IMG/VR virus record: IMGVR_UViG_3300009194_000059
Span: 1 to 20,382 of that record
DNA: 20,382 nucleotides
From: a virus
Reading direction: 5' to 3' (one strand)
Shown here: piece after piece, positions 1,529 through 16,871 of the stretch
How positions within the stretch are numbered: position 1 is the first letter of the stretch
Layout of the letters: every line of letters begins with the position of its first letter
The notes under the pieces: model-generated
Told to the model about the DNA's origin: nothing
Database searches by the model: none
What the model saw: only the letters and a program-made list of their open reading frames with translations
Position numbers and translations under genes: made by a program

Positions 1529-1695
1529 TGAAAGAACAACGCGAACAACAAATGCACCATACTTACCGCTTATGCGTAATGTTTGGTATGTGGCTACAAC
1601 AAAAGGAACAACGCAAACGATTAGCAAAGGGATCAATGACTGACTTGTTTCAGGAATGGATAGAACTAATTAGCAATCAACTTGGTGATGAGTAA
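1528..1695 (+). CDS. 55-residue phage protein of unknown function
   Basis: This short reading frame fills an otherwise empty gap between two coupled genes. Its ATG overlaps the preceding stop (TAATG at 1526-1530) and its stop lies 8 bases inside the next gene. The product begins MKEQREQQMHHTYRLCVMFG and ends with a Trp-containing helix (about residues 37-52). It is rich in Gln, Lys and Arg in the first 35 residues. There is no membrane segment or known motif. The exact start and stop overlaps on both sides, matching the style of all its neighbours, are the main reason to believe it is expressed. Confidence 0.6.
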   Translation: MKEQREQQMHHTYRLCVMFGMWLQQKEQRKRLAKGSMTDLFQEWIELISNQLGDE

Positions 1696-2269
1696 AGTAA
1701 AACTTACCCTTGACTATTCGACAATTACGGTGAAACAATACGTTGACTTTCTTACCAACGAAGGTAATGAGATAGGTCAGGTGTCCGCAATAATGGGACA
1801 ACCTAAGGACTATGTTAGGCAACTATCACCCGAGGACATCACGAAGGTAATCGATGCGTTCAAATCGGTAATAGAGAATCCTGTAGCTGAACACAAATAT
1901 AAGTGGAACAAGTACGGCTTCGTTCCCGATATAAACAAGATTTCATTTGGTGAATGGTTGGACCTTGAAAGCAACTGCAAGGACTTTCCAAAGAACCTCA
2001 ATAAGATACTATCTATTCTTTATCGACCTATCCATTCCGAGATTGGCTCAAAGTACAAAATTGAGCCATATACCGCAGAACATTTAAGCAATGCAAAGGT
2101 GTTTGATGAGATGCCTTTATCAATCGCGAATGGTGCGTTGGTTTTTTTTTCGAATATCGAAAACGAATTGTTGACAGCTTCCCTAGAGTATTTAGATACA
2201 ACGATGATGAGGGAGATGGAGACAGCGATAGCGATGATGAAGGAAGCGGTGGCGCAACAAACGACTTAA
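1688..2269 (+). CDS. Tail assembly chaperone, unshifted (gpG-like) form
   Basis: This is the 0-frame product (193 residues) of a lambda G/G-T type tail chaperone gene. In lambda, such proteins coat the tape measure during tail assembly and are absent from the finished virion. The N-terminal half has a short beta-strand start (VKLTLDYSTITVKQYVDF) and a helical core. Residues near 147-166 read NGALVFFSNIENELLTASLE, a phrase typical of the Bacteroidota phage version. I chose the ATG at 1688 over an upstream in-frame TTG at 1682 because it overlaps the preceding stop in the same style as its neighbours. A T9 run at 2142-2150 sits in the FF codons and probably lets part of the ribosomes, or RNA polymerase, move to the -1 frame. 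Confidence 0.75.
   Translation: MSKVKLTLDYSTITVKQYVDFLTNEGNEIGQVSAIMGQPKDYVRQLSPEDITKVIDAFKSVIENPVAEHKYKWNKYGFVPDINKISFGEWLDLESNCKDFPKNLNKILSILYRPIHSEIGSKYKIEPYTAEHLSNAKVFDEMPLSIANGALVFFSNIENELLTASLEYLDTTMMREMETAIAMMKEAVAQQTT
2142..2163 (+). promoter_or_regulatory. Slippery T9 run with overlapping hairpin (programmed -1 frameshift site)
   Basis: Nine T residues at 2142-2150 give the codons GTT TTT TTT TCG in the 0 frame. The heptamer T TTT TTT at 2143-2149 fits the X XXY YYZ rule for -1 slippage. A perfect 6-base-pair inverted repeat, TTTTCG (2147-2152) and CGAAAA (2158-2163) with loop AATAT, overlaps the run and may aid ribosomal or transcriptional slippage. Confidence 0.65.
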
Positions 2270-2427
2270 GCGAACGTTACGGATGGTTTCACGTTATCGA
2301 AGAATTAGCGGATAGGGATGTAACCAAGTTCGACACAATAACCGAAACCCAGGCTTCAACAATCTTCGCACATCTATCGTACCGGATAGATTACTTTTCT
2401 TTCCAAAAACAACTCCTAAAAAAGTAA
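2149..2427 (+). CDS. Frameshifted T domain of tail assembly chaperone (gpG-T-like)
   Basis: In the -1 frame relative to the chaperone, an open frame runs from just upstream of the T9 run to the TAA at 2425-2427. It contains no ATG, GTG or TTG start, so it needs frameshifting to be made. The predicted fusion is 154 residues of the G part plus about 92 residues. The extension starts FEYRKRIVDSF, passes through an acidic Asp/Glu/Ser linker, then reads ERYGWFHVIEELADRDVTKF and ends in a basic helix. The phrase YGWFHVIEELA is typical of the T part in related phages. In lambda the T part contacts the tube protein. This frame explains the apparent gap 2270-2448. A sequencing error in the homopolymer is the alternative. 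Confidence 0.72.
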   Translation, partial: FEYRKRIVDSFPRVFRYNDDEGDGDSDSDDEGSGGATNDLSERYGWFHVIEELADRDVTKFDTITETQASTIFAHLSYRIDYFSFQKQLLKK

Positions 2428-9956: not shown

Positions 9957-11525
9957 ATGGCTACACAAAAGACAGTTGTTGAAATTGATATACAAGGCAC
10001 GGAACGCGTTGAATCGATGCGCACTCAAATGCGTAGATTACGCGAAGAGTTGGCGCGATTGCCAGAGGGAACTGCCGAATTTAATAAGGTTCAAAGGCAA
10101 CTTGGTGAACTAAATGACAAAATGGGCGACCTCGGTAGGTCGGTCAATACATTAGCAGGTGATCCGTTAGAACGACTGAATAACTCCTTCGGGATGATTG
10201 GTAGTTCTATACTATCACTTGACTTTGGCGCAGCGCAAACAGGTTTACAAGGAGTAACTTCAGCAATCAATGATTTCAAGTTTGGCGACCTTTCCAATGC
10301 GGCTAAAGGCTTTGGTAAAACAATGCTAGATTTGGGTAAGGCTTTACTTACAAATCCAATCTTTTTGATTGGTGGCGCTATTGCTTTAATCGTTACCAAC
10401 TTTGAGGAACTCACAAAGGCAGGTGGATTAGTTGGTAAAATGTTTGGTTTCCTTAAAACAACCATTGATTCAGTTACGCAAGGTCTTGTTGACTTTATGG
10501 ACTGGATAGGGTTAACCGATTCCAAAGCCGAAGAACGTGCCGAGAATGAAAAGAAAAGAGCCGAAGAGGCAAAGAAGTTGGAGGATGAAAAGGTAAAGAA
10601 GCAAAAGGAAGCCGAAGCCGAAAAAGATAGGTTAGCAAAAGAAGCCGCAAAAAAAGAAGCGGAAAGAATGCAGAAGGTTAGAGATGACCAAAAGGCATTA
10701 ACGGAATATATAAAGGCAGAGCAGGAAAAGAGATATCAAGACACTTTAGCGAATGATGATAAACTTGTAAGACAGGCGCAACTCCAGTACGAAGAAAAAA
10801 AGAAATTAGCGCATGGAAATATTCAACTACTTAAGCAATTAGAAGAAGAATATCAGAAGCAGGTTGCTGAAATTCGTGATAAGGAAACTTTACAAATTAA
10901 AGGTCGTGATGCTACACGTGTAACATCCGCAACCATTACAAGTGGAATTGTACTTAAAACCAACCAAGCCGAAGTAGATGCCGCGTTAGCAAATCAAAAG
11001 AAACAGCAGGAAGGTGATGCCGCTTTATATGCTGCACGTTATCAAATAGCACAACAAACCATAGGCGGTTTAATGGATCTTAATACCGCGTTAGTTGATA
11101 GTGGAATAGTTGACGCAAAGAAAGGATTTCAAATTGCCAAAACTTTGGGCATTGCACAAGCCACGATAGGAACTATTGAAGCTACTCAAAATGCATTTAC
11201 AACTGCTTCGGCAAGTCCTATAACAACTGTATTTCCTGCATATCCGTTTGTTCAGGCAGGTATTGCGGCTGCGGCTGGTATTGCACGTATTGCATCAATT
11301 CGCGCACAACAATTCAACGGAGGTGGAAACGCACCAAAGCCAACTTCAAACGGTGGAGGTGGCTCAATGGGTGGTTCAACTTCAGCCCCTGCGGTTGACT
11401 TATCTTTCTTGAATGTAAATGGTAATAAATCACAACCTATTCAAACCTACGTATTAGCGACTAACGTAAGTAGCGCACAAGAAGCCGAACAAAAAATTAA
11501 AGACCAATCAAAAATCATAAAATAA
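9957..11525 (+). CDS. Tape measure protein
   Basis: This 522-residue protein should set tail length and enter the host with the DNA. The N-terminal 60 residues are a helical coiled coil (MRTQMRRLREELARL). A hydrophobic, membrane-compatible stretch lies at about 128-147 (LLTNPIFLIGGAIALIV). Residues about 190-310 are an extended Lys/Glu/Ala coiled coil. The C-terminal part holds GFQIAKTLGIAQATIGTIEA and an Ala-rich segment AGIAAAAGIARIASI, which are hallmark tape-measure phrases, then a Gly/Ser-rich tail. At the lambda-like ratio of about 0.15 nm per residue this predicts a tail near 80 nm, an estimate only. Unlike in lambda, the chaperone gene is not adjacent but 7.5 kb upstream. The stop overlaps the protease start (TAATG). 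Confidence 0.88.
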   Translation: MATQKTVVEIDIQGTERVESMRTQMRRLREELARLPEGTAEFNKVQRQLGELNDKMGDLGRSVNTLAGDPLERLNNSFGMIGSSILSLDFGAAQTGLQGVTSAINDFKFGDLSNAAKGFGKTMLDLGKALLTNPIFLIGGAIALIVTNFEELTKAGGLVGKMFGFLKTTIDSVTQGLVDFMDWIGLTDSKAEERAENEKKRAEEAKKLEDEKVKKQKEAEAEKDRLAKEAAKKEAERMQKVRDDQKALTEYIKAEQEKRYQDTLANDDKLVRQAQLQYEEKKKLAHGNIQLLKQLEEEYQKQVAEIRDKETLQIKGRDATRVTSATITSGIVLKTNQAEVDAALANQKKQQEGDAALYAARYQIAQQTIGGLMDLNTALVDSGIVDAKKGFQIAKTLGIAQATIGTIEATQNAFTTASASPITTVFPAYPFVQAGIAAAAGIARIASIRAQQFNGGGNAPKPTSNGGGGSMGGSTSAPAVDLSFLNVNGNKSQPIQTYVLATNVSSAQEAEQKIKDQSKIIK

Positions 11526-13888: not shown

Positions 13889-14434
13889 ATGGCTTGTGAA
13901 TTAACCGCAGGATTTGCACTTGATTGTAAAGAGGGTGTAGGTGGTATTAAGGCTATCTTCTTGCAACAATTAGCAGACTTCCAAACAGGAGTTGTGATAA
14001 ATGGTACAAGTGAAGAAGTAGAAGAATTACCTACTGCATCAATTTACCAATACACACTTCCAAAACATACTGGTTCTTTTACTGAAGAAGTTGCTTCTTC
14101 TGTTGAAAATGGAACAATTTTCTACACGCAAACCGTTACTGCAACTTTCTTTAAGTTGACTGCTAACCGTAGAAAACAACTTGAATTAGTTGCTAAAAAT
14201 CGTCTTGTTGTTTTTGTATTGGATAACAACAATAACATCTGGATGATTGGTAAGGTTGATGGTGCTGAAGTTACTGCTGCATCTACTTCTACAGGAACTG
14301 CAAAAGGTGATTTGAATGGTTATACCATTACATTTACTGCAGAAGAAGCCCACAAGGCTTACCGATTGGAGTCTTATGGTACAACTCCATTTGATAACTT
14401 CCCTGATATCACCGTTGTAGCACCTACAATTTAA
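13889..14434 (+). CDS. Probable major tail tube protein
   Basis: This 181-residue protein begins MACELTAGFALDCKEGVGGI and contains TGSFTEEVASSVENGTIFYTQ (about 61-81), a helix TANRRKQLELVAKNRLVVFV (about 92-111) and GYTITFTAEE (about 144-153). The alternation of strands with one central helix fits the tail tube fold. I know close relatives only as phage structural or hypothetical proteins. Two observations support a tube role: it uses the same GCT/GTT/ACT-rich codons as the capsid gene, implying an abundant virion protein, and no other candidate tube gene exists in the window. It has its own A-rich leader (AAAAAAAATTACT before ATG). A Bacteroidota promoter and an intragenic terminator follow. 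Confidence 0.6.
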   Translation: MACELTAGFALDCKEGVGGIKAIFLQQLADFQTGVVINGTSEEVEELPTASIYQYTLPKHTGSFTEEVASSVENGTIFYTQTVTATFFKLTANRRKQLELVAKNRLVVFVLDNNNNIWMIGKVDGAEVTAASTSTGTAKGDLNGYTITFTAEEAHKAYRLESYGTTPFDNFPDITVVAPTI

Positions 14435-14452: not shown

Positions 14453-14860
14453 ATGAATTACCTTCAAACGAATACCGCATCGCAGACCCTTCTCCTTTCT
14501 TTAAAGGAGGGGGTTTTGCTTTTTGATACAACGTATACGAATTACTTACTTGTAATTCAAAACGAAATTACATTAGAGACATTTTATGTTATACCTGCTC
14601 AAATCAGCGAGAACGATAGGGTCACGACTTTGGCAATTAGTACAAATGACGATGATCCAACTAATGGTTCTATCCTTGTTACTAATGGTGGGCGGTATAA
14701 CTTCATTATATACGGTCAAAATTCAACTACAAATCTTGACCCACAAAACGCGGATGTGGTTGGTGAGATTAAAAGAGGGTTTATTCAAATGGAAACTTTG
14801 GTGAACTATTACGACCAACCAAACATAATTATTCCAAGCGACATCGAATACAATGGATAA
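14453..14860 (+). CDS. Conserved virion-associated protein of unknown function
   Basis: This 135-residue protein begins MNYLQTNTASQTLLLSL. It has a beta-strand-rich body and the phrase YNFIIYGQNSTTNLDPQNAD (about 82-101), which I recognise from a conserved family located beside portal and tail tube genes in Bacteroidota phages. No function is known; a small head or tail accessory protein is likely from context. The start is supported by the MNYL opening and an AAAGG just upstream, one of few Shine-Dalgarno-like sequences here. An intrinsic-terminator-like hairpin lies inside codons 14-20. The stop overlaps the portal start by 8 bases. Confidence 0.7.
   Translation: MNYLQTNTASQTLLLSLKEGVLLFDTTYTNYLLVIQNEITLETFYVIPAQISENDRVTTLAISTNDDDPTNGSILVTNGGRYNFIIYGQNSTTNLDPQNADVVGEIKRGFIQMETLVNYYDQPNIIIPSDIEYNG
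14490..14524 (+). terminator. Intragenic terminator-like hairpin
   Basis: CTCCTTT (14492-14498) pairs with AAAGGAG (14503-14509) around a CTTT loop. Two G-U and two C-G pairs extend the stem to about 11 pairs, followed by TTTTGCTTTTT. It lies within the first 25 codons of the gene at 14453 and downstream of a promoter. It could cap the abundant capsid/tube message or attenuate the portal message. Confidence 0.6.
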
Positions 14861-16871
14861 AAATAAATCAATCGTTGACAGGTTTAGCGCTACACAAGTA
14901 GAGTTAGCCAAGTACGTTAAAATCGAGCCTATTGAGTTTGAAGATAGGAAGGGATGGGTGGCTTATGGTGAAGGAAATCATTTCCCACAATACTTGATTG
15001 AACTATATAACACTTCGCCTGTTCACGGTGCGCTCGTAAATAGTATTGCGTTTATGATAGCAGGTAAAGAATTTACTGCTGCATCACAAGTTACCTTGCG
15101 CGAGATTCAACGATTGAAGTTAGATAAGGTATTGCATTCAACTGCACTTGATTTAAAGTTACACGGAGGCTTTTATTGGGAGGTAATTTGGTCAATGGAT
15201 AGAAGCACCATTGCACAAATAAACCACTTGCCATATGAGAACTGTCGTTTGGCTTGTTCCGATGATAACGATGATGTTACTGGCGTTTGGTATTCACGCG
15301 ATTGGTCGGATACAAGAAAGAAGAAAAACAACCCTCATTACATTCCATTATTTGACATAAATACCAAAGACGAAAACCCGAAACAAGTGATGTTTCAGCA
15401 TTCGATGATGGTTGGAAGTGAGTATTATCCGAAGCCTGACTACATCGGTGCTATCAATGAGATTGAGAAATTAAGACAATTAAGCGAATACCAAGTTAAC
15501 TTAATTTTAAATGGTTTCTTTCCTTCGTTAATTGCATCATTTAACAACGGAATACCTACGTTAGAGGAACAAAGAATGATAAAACAACAACTGCAAATGA
15601 GCATTCAAGGTGCTGAAAATGCAGGAAAGGTATTGACATTCTTTAACGAGGAACGTGACCGAGGTGTAGAGTTCACCGCATTTCCTGTAGCAGATATGGA
15701 CAAGCAATTTGAATCGCTTGTAACCCCTGCTATTGAGCAAATTTTGGTAAGTCACCGCGTTACTTCACCGCTTCTTTTTGGTGTGCGTGATGGTGGCGGT
15801 TTGGGTAGCAATACCGATGAAATGAAAACTGCATTTCGTTTGTTTTCAAAGCAAGTAATTGATCCATTCCAACGCATCATTTGTGATGGTGTAGATATGT
15901 TATTACGTGCTATCGGAGTTCCACAAGGTGCTGAAATTGTAGAGAATGATTTGTTTGAAGAAGATGTTGTTATAAATGGCAACGTAGCGCCAAGCCAAGA
16001 TATCGCAAGTCAGGCATTGAATGGAGCGCAGATTTCTTCTTTACTTGAAATTATTACGAAAACAACTGCAAATGTATTGACTTCAACAAGTGCGAAGGCT
16101 ATAACTAAAGCGGCTTTCCCGATGCTATCGGATGTTGAAATCAATAACATTTTTGATAACTTAAGTAGTGTTAACTTACAACCTACGGATGTGTTGCAAT
16201 CATCCGAAAAAAAAAAAGTTAAGCACGAACACAAAGAAGTTTCTAAAGTCTGCTGTTCATCAAGCGATGATTTCACGGATGAAGAAGGAAAGCAATTTCT
16301 AAAACAACTTGCTGAATGTGGTGAGTTGATTGATTTAGAAGAATGGGAATTAGTAGAAGAATGTGAAGTTGACAATTATGACAACGAAGAACAATTTACC
16401 AAAGTAAATCAAGGTCTTGAAACATATGCTGACCCAGACCAAAAGAGTAAATTAGACGCAGGACTTTACAAGGTGCGTTATAGATATTCCACTTGGATAA
16501 GTGAAAAGTCACGCGAGTTTTGTCGTGAAATGGTGAGACTTTCAAAAGGTGGCATTGTTTGGAGATACGAGGACATCCAAGAAATGAGTGCTGCAGGTGT
16601 TAATGGACAATTCGCAGAGCGAGGTAAGAGTAGTTATAATTTGTTCCGCTATTGTGGGGGGGTTAATTGCCATCATGCTTGGATGCGTGCCATTTACAAA
16701 CGTAAAAGACAGGGCGGTAAGTTCTTACCTAATGAAGGAATGGATAATGAGGTAAAGATTGCGGTTAGAAAAGCAGAAGCAGAAGGATTCTCACCAATGG
16801 ATAGAACCGTTGGTTATGATGATGCAAAAACACCGATGATTAAACGACCAAACGGAGGAAGATTAAACTAA
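14853..16871 (+). CDS. Portal protein with extra C-terminal head-protein-like domain
   Basis: The portal forms the ring at the capsid vertex through which DNA enters and leaves. This 672-residue version is longer than the usual 400-500. Residues 1-450 look like the portal core: GWVAYGEGNHFPQYLIELYN (about 29-48), SPVHGALVNSIAFMIAGKEF, then HLPYENCRLACSDDN, and later SHRVTSPLLFGVRDGGGLGSN (about 304-324). A Lys-rich linker (452-460), encoded by an A11 run, leads to an acidic region and a C-terminal domain (about 535-640). That domain has FCREM (C557), VWRYEDIQEMSAAGVN and GGVNCHHAW (C606, H607, H608). This pattern recalls the Mu F / SPP1 gp7 minor head family. Slippage in the A11 run would end the protein at residue 456. 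Confidence 0.82.
   Translation: MDKNKSIVDRFSATQVELAKYVKIEPIEFEDRKGWVAYGEGNHFPQYLIELYNTSPVHGALVNSIAFMIAGKEFTAASQVTLREIQRLKLDKVLHSTALDLKLHGGFYWEVIWSMDRSTIAQINHLPYENCRLACSDDNDDVTGVWYSRDWSDTRKKKNNPHYIPLFDINTKDENPKQVMFQHSMMVGSEYYPKPDYIGAINEIEKLRQLSEYQVNLILNGFFPSLIASFNNGIPTLEEQRMIKQQLQMSIQGAENAGKVLTFFNEERDRGVEFTAFPVADMDKQFESLVTPAIEQILVSHRVTSPLLFGVRDGGGLGSNTDEMKTAFRLFSKQVIDPFQRIICDGVDMLLRAIGVPQGAEIVENDLFEEDVVINGNVAPSQDIASQALNGAQISSLLEIITKTTANVLTSTSAKAITKAAFPMLSDVEINNIFDNLSSVNLQPTDVLQSSEKKKVKHEHKEVSKVCCSSSDDFTDEEGKQFLKQLAECGELIDLEEWELVEECEVDNYDNEEQFTKVNQGLETYADPDQKSKLDAGLYKVRYRYSTWISEKSREFCREMVRLSKGGIVWRYEDIQEMSAAGVNGQFAERGKSSYNLFRYCGGVNCHHAWMRAIYKRKRQGGKFLPNEGMDNEVKIAVRKAEAEGFSPMDRTVGYDDAKTPMIKRPNGGRLN
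16207..16217 (+). repeat. A11 homopolymer in portal linker
   Basis: Eleven A residues give the codons GAA AAA AAA AAA GTT. A -1 shift reads AGT then TAA at 16220-16222, so it stops at once. A +1 shift stops about 25 codons on. Either event yields a core-only portal. It may be a slippage site or just a low-complexity linker. Confidence 0.6.

Follow-up and report, generated by a model that had tools for sequence, protein, structure and literature searches.

A conserved run of nine Ts in a phage late gene as a probable programmed −1 frameshift site

The window analysed here is a 20,382-nucleotide stretch of DNA (positions 1 to 20,382 of IMG/VR record IMGVR_UViG_3300009194_000059) from an uncultured phage that probably infects Bacteroidota (Flavobacteriia-type) bacteria. 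It contains two overlapping reading frames, here called G (0 frame) and T (−1 frame), that meet at a run of nine Ts (T9). The features discussed are:

1688..2269, + strand, G-like 0-frame ORF (short product, phrog_32199), 193 aa; alignment, AlphaFold2 mean pLDDT 85
2142..2150, + strand, T9 run with the slippery heptamer T_TTT_TTT at 2143–2149; T9 in 280 of 283 loci, T10 in 2
2149..2427, + strand, −1 frame T extension with its stop at 2425–2427; predicted fusion of 246 aa, T relative phrog_38404, phase switch
2151..2269, + strand, dual-coding overlap with both frames constrained; codon-position variability 0.21/0.23/0.24
2148..2162, + strand, 6-bp hairpin TTTCGA-ATA-TCGAAA, clade-limited and not supported as a stimulator
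9957..11525, + strand, tape measure protein candidate, 522 aa; weak phrog_1538 match (E 0.0079)

The sensible start of G is the ATG at 1688 (1682 is a TTG), and its stop codon occupies 2267–2269. Its codons across the run are GTT TTT TTT TCG, so that T_TTT_TTT is phased as tandem −1 slippage requires and decoding would then resume with TTC at 2149. The −1 frame is open from 2110 to 2427, encodes an acidic Asp/Gly/Ser linker within the overlap and has no ATG, GTG or TTG between the run and a YGWF core further on. The predicted transframe peptide of the G-T fusion includes ...GALVFFFEYRKR.... An earlier note on this DNA had placed a programmed −1 frameshift at the run, and its coordinates for the 0-frame stop, the open −1 frame, the T9 run and the in-phase heptamer were all confirmed, as was the lack of a usable start codon in the −1 frame.

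A first scan of viral contigs gave 56 relatives with 64–97% identity, further scans reached loci with only about 21–28% identity to the window's G part, and two wide scans returned at least 450 and at least 570 confirmed relatives. Members of the gene family occur both on phage contigs and on contigs from Flavobacteriaceae and other Bacteroidota. The same gene pair also lies at 10019–10707 of a contig binned as a Euryarchaeota archaeon (L134), likely a phage contig put in the wrong bin. For the comparison of frames we used the 283 loci in which both G and T were matched by tblastn. All 283 have T in the −1 frame relative to G and none has it in frame, a relation far beyond chance; relatives with a continuous single frame, which the earlier note had named as evidence against frameshifting, are absent from this set. 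The run is T9 in 280 loci, T10 in two (L070, L281) and missing in one (L199). Clustering at 60% identity gives 46 lineages that carry a T9 or T10 run, and in these the codon preceding the Phe pair is GTT, CTT, ATT or TTT and the pair itself reads TTT TTT, that is, every synonymous position in the slip site is a T. Phe codons in the window are 59% TTT and 41% TTC, and codon usage alone would give all-TTT sites with a probability of 10^-34, a value that treats the lineages as independent and so overstates the case. A scan of the collection with the degenerate pattern TTYTTYTAYCAYTTAGGNAAYGA (TTYTTY, with TTC allowed) returned NTT TTT TTT at 80 of 80 loci. Within the window's close family the T9 columns do not vary at all, and T9 is found at the homologous codons in the isolate genome of Nonlabens phage P12024S and in an IMG/VR record of 35,652 bases.

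Codon-position variability, computed on 56 distinct sequences of the window's close family, averages 0.19/0.10/0.47 at 0-frame positions 1/2/3 upstream of the run, 0.21/0.23/0.24 in the overlap and 0.07/0.45/0.13 past the 0-frame stop, 0-frame position 2 being position 3 of the −1 frame. This pattern implies that constraint acts on frame 0 up to the run, on both frames within the overlap and on frame −1 beyond it; as read from these alignments, third-position variation moves to the −1 frame across an overlap that starts at the run. All representatives have a fusion of 231–252 aa, yet their 0-frame ORFs span 167 to 245 aa, the G stop lying 50–239 nt downstream of the run among lineages, and in most lineages the −1 frame is conserved directly from the run as FF[FL].[FY]R.R. 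The frame relation, the invariant slip site, the dual coding and the selection on T are thus established at the sequence level. By all comparative evidence (invariant site, codon-phase switch, lack of in-frame relatives and constant fusion length) the programmed −1 frameshift joining G to T is supported as genuine.

Homopolymers are error-prone, and an assembly or sequencing error in the run would be the most trivial explanation, but T9 is seen in 280 loci from different samples as well as in an isolate genome, the frame relation never changes, and the codon-phase switch is independent of run length; these observations refute it, and we give it practically no credence. Another reading makes T a separate gene, with its own start or translated by reinitiation after the G stop, and in Nonlabens phage P12024S an ATG does overlap the G stop and T is annotated as a separate ORF. 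Nevertheless, 111 of 127 −1 frames, that of the window included, lack a start codon in the stretch from the run to the domain core, on which ground an independent start was discarded, and the −1 frame is conserved from the run onward, upstream of any such start, with the G stop falling anywhere 50–239 nt past the run. A separate T gene is accordingly very improbable.

Whether the slip is made by the ribosome or by RNA polymerase is addressed by the single locus without a run. L199 and 14 further contigs (L285–L298) have NNA AAT TTT ATW in place of T9, giving the heptamer A_AAU_UUU (254–260 in L199), with slip codons one codon upstream of those of T9 in an alignment made by eye. Both frames are kept in L199, reading V-N-F-I-Y-R-L-G in frame 0 and K-F-Y-I-P-F-R-D-R in frame −1. 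A_AAU_UUU is a canonical ribosomal slippery heptamer and is not a homopolymer. In a maximum-likelihood tree of 49 fusions, rooted at the midpoint only, three representatives of the L199 clade form one clade (100/100) nested with starred support inside a group of T9 lineages, and on this tree the simplest reading would be that one slippery heptamer was exchanged for another just once. Because the L199 clade has A_AAU_UUU and no homopolymer, ribosomal −1 slippage is favoured over polymerase slippage. The swap fits slippage by the ribosome and cannot work by homopolymer slippage, which suggests that the ribosome, not RNA polymerase, makes the slip, although the T9 lineages may not use the ribosome alone. 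The polymerase slippage that the earlier note had raised as possible is therefore not needed, though in the T9 lineages themselves it might still contribute.

Under transcriptional slippage, RNA polymerase would add one U or drop two on T9, and ordinary translation of the altered mRNA would produce G-T. Nine Ts in a row are enough for this, bacterial slippage on homopolymer runs is known (PMC5009743; PMC3711429), and Thermus dnaX and certain IS elements likewise have a homopolymer of nine at the frame junction. An A/T homopolymer of about nine or more lies at the junction in nearly every locus here, the length being nine in 280 of 283 though seven Ts suffice for the ribosomal heptamer, and the portal gene of the same genomes has a conserved A10/A11 run of its own. 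The homopolymer does not extend throughout the family, however: the 15 contigs of the L199 clade have the same gene architecture with AAATTTT at nearly the same codons, unlike the dnaX and IS element cases. The outer two Ts can moreover be explained by coding, as the second base of a Val/Leu/Ile/Phe codon and within a −1 frame Phe/Leu codon TTN, and there is no consistent upstream hairpin. We consider transcriptional slippage improbable as the source of the fusion. A point against ribosomal slippage at T9 is that, in E. coli, U_UUU_UUU is reported to shift far less readily than A_AAA_AAG (PMC5009743).

The earlier note also drew attention to a 6-bp hairpin at the frame switch. The hairpin exists at 2148–2162, but it folds to only −2.7 kcal/mol and has three bases in common with the slip run. 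Only the window's clade retains it; other lineages lack it, and its conservation in that clade is explicable by dual coding, the columns being constrained by two reading frames. When 20 representatives were folded, no conserved structure was found downstream of the run (z-scores of −1.8 to +1.4 from +5 to +75), and upstream structure was likewise not consistent, with single values of −2.5 in the window and −3.3 in L066. With z-scores scattered around zero and no structure common to the lineages, the hairpin was rejected as a stimulator.

The portal ORF of the window (14853–16871) has an A11 run (16207–16217) at the junction of the portal domain and a C-terminal extension. Across the window and 19 relatives with 65–96% identity the run is A11 in 16 sequences and A10 in four, and it is followed by GTTRA, so that in 20 of 20 sequences the −1 frame meets TAA or TGA two bases past the run (16207–16222 in the window). 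Variability in the run and GTT is 0.02, whereas the flanks have 0.40 (before) and 0.32 (after), and the −1 stop varies at one base only, A/G, the stop being kept either way. Two more distant sequences, L438 and L440, have A11 and A10, respectively, without an immediate −1 stop. The A10/A11 run is probably a second programmed slippage site giving a truncated portal: a −1 shift would produce a form of about 456 aa besides the 672-aa form, comparable to the shorter product of dnaX.

Gene order is similar in the window, in a Flagellimonas onchidii contig (L132, probably a prophage) and in P12024S: terminase, G/G-T, a protein of about 150 aa, a phrog_29822 protein, larger proteins, tape measure, protease and capsid protein, the terminase gene being absent from the window itself. 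Terminase, tape measure, protease, major capsid and portal genes belong to the same operon as G/G-T. The (probable) tape measure gene of L132 and P12024S comes about five ORFs after G/G-T, and the window's candidate lies approximately 7.5 kb downstream of G-T. For this candidate we found no annotated phage relative, while the L132 gene in the same place matches the tape measure family phrog_339 (8.6e-9). A phrog_19091 protein at 13889–14434, between the capsid and portal genes, is a tail tube protein candidate by position only.

G belongs to phrog_32199 and, in Nonlabens-like members, T belongs to phrog_38404; PHROGs assign a function to neither. The AlphaFold2 model of G is confident and mostly helical, whereas that of T is poor (mean pLDDT 61). 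The fold search with G gave no significant PDB match, Pfam and PDB sequence searches returned nothing usable, and a match to a known tail chaperone was found in none of Pfam, PDB sequences, Foldseek or VIA. All significant BFVD matches of G are uncharacterised or unnamed phage proteins, entries named as chaperones reaching only E values of 0.3–1.2. One weak BFVD structural relative, R9VW65, corresponds by length to a 191-aa hypothetical protein of Flavobacterium phage 6H (L299, complement 10352–10927), which is followed by about 300 nt without an annotated gene. When the T9 scheme was applied to phage 6H, the −1 frame stopped right after FFL, and any frameshift there must differ.

Lambda gpG/gpG-T is a tail assembly chaperone made by a −1 frameshift at G_GGA_AAG. 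Its T domain binds the tail tube protein (PMC5009743). As in lambda, the second protein here is a −1 extension of the first (283 of 283 loci, with a codon-phase switch) from a slippery X_XXY_YYZ heptamer in phase (T_TTT_TTT, or A_AAU_UUU in the L199 clade), within a late structural operon of a phage that also has a tape measure gene. Unlike in lambda, the slip site is T9 or, in one clade, A_AAU_UUU, the overlap extends 50–239 nt past the run such that most of T overlaps the 0 frame in some lineages, the gene comes after terminase, and similarity was detected neither in sequence nor in fold. By analogy of architecture and operon, G and G-T may have a tail assembly chaperone role. The chaperone assignment of the earlier note thus agrees with the frameshift architecture and the late operon, but lacks a sequence or fold match, and in L132 and P12024S the gene is not directly upstream of the tape measure gene.

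We think it likely that 1688–2427 makes a G-like protein and a G-T fusion through a −1 slip at T9 and that the two act in tail assembly. In this model the majority of ribosomes would stop at 2269 and release the 193-aa G-like protein, while a minority would slip back one base with two tRNA-Phe on both TTT codons of T9 and read on in the −1 frame to give the 246-aa fusion, presumably the minor product. The C-terminal helical domain of the fusion (YGWFHVIEELADRDVTKF...) would be attached via the acidic linker, and the G/G-T pair would bind the tape measure protein and recruit the tail tube protein, as lambda gpG/gpGT. The frameshifted pair could instead be some other structural or assembly protein made in two lengths, a reading that accords with the position after terminase and away from the tape measure gene, with the PHROGs of the pair having no function and with the absent PDB fold match. 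However, tail chaperones are usually encoded in just this way, as a small helical protein with a −1 extension, in the late operon of a phage that has a tape measure gene, and none of the searches supported an alternative annotation; we regard another role as unlikely, if still deserving some weight.

The frameshifted tail chaperone as such is known. New here are an invariant U-run site without an evident stimulator, a long dual-coding overlap and the placement after terminase; a literature search, whose coverage of subscription journals was thin, found no report of the T9 site. The direct homologues of the G part and, in Nonlabens-like lineages, of the T part are phrog_32199 and phrog_38404. 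In P12024S these are gp38 and gp39 (L058 8998–9692), which form both halves of the frameshifted gene but are annotated as two unrelated hypothetical proteins, with no frameshift indicated.

A large, widespread and unrecognised phage gene family, of which PHROGs list halves only, emerges as a frameshifted gene, and the comparison supplies a rule for annotators: a Val/Leu/Ile codon whose first base is followed by T9, with FF[FL].[FY]R.R in the −1 frame. Homopolymer slippage, by ribosome or polymerase, might even be a general dosage device in these phages, T9 adding a domain to the tail chaperone and A10/A11 shortening the portal so that two virion stoichiometries are set, an idea we put forward tentatively and at slightly less than even likelihood. 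The exchange of T9 for A_AAU_UUU serves as a natural experiment for telling ribosomal slippage from polymerase slippage, and with the T9 lineages one can ask how a protein ratio is set in Bacteroidota phages by a U-run heptamer that has no evident stimulator.
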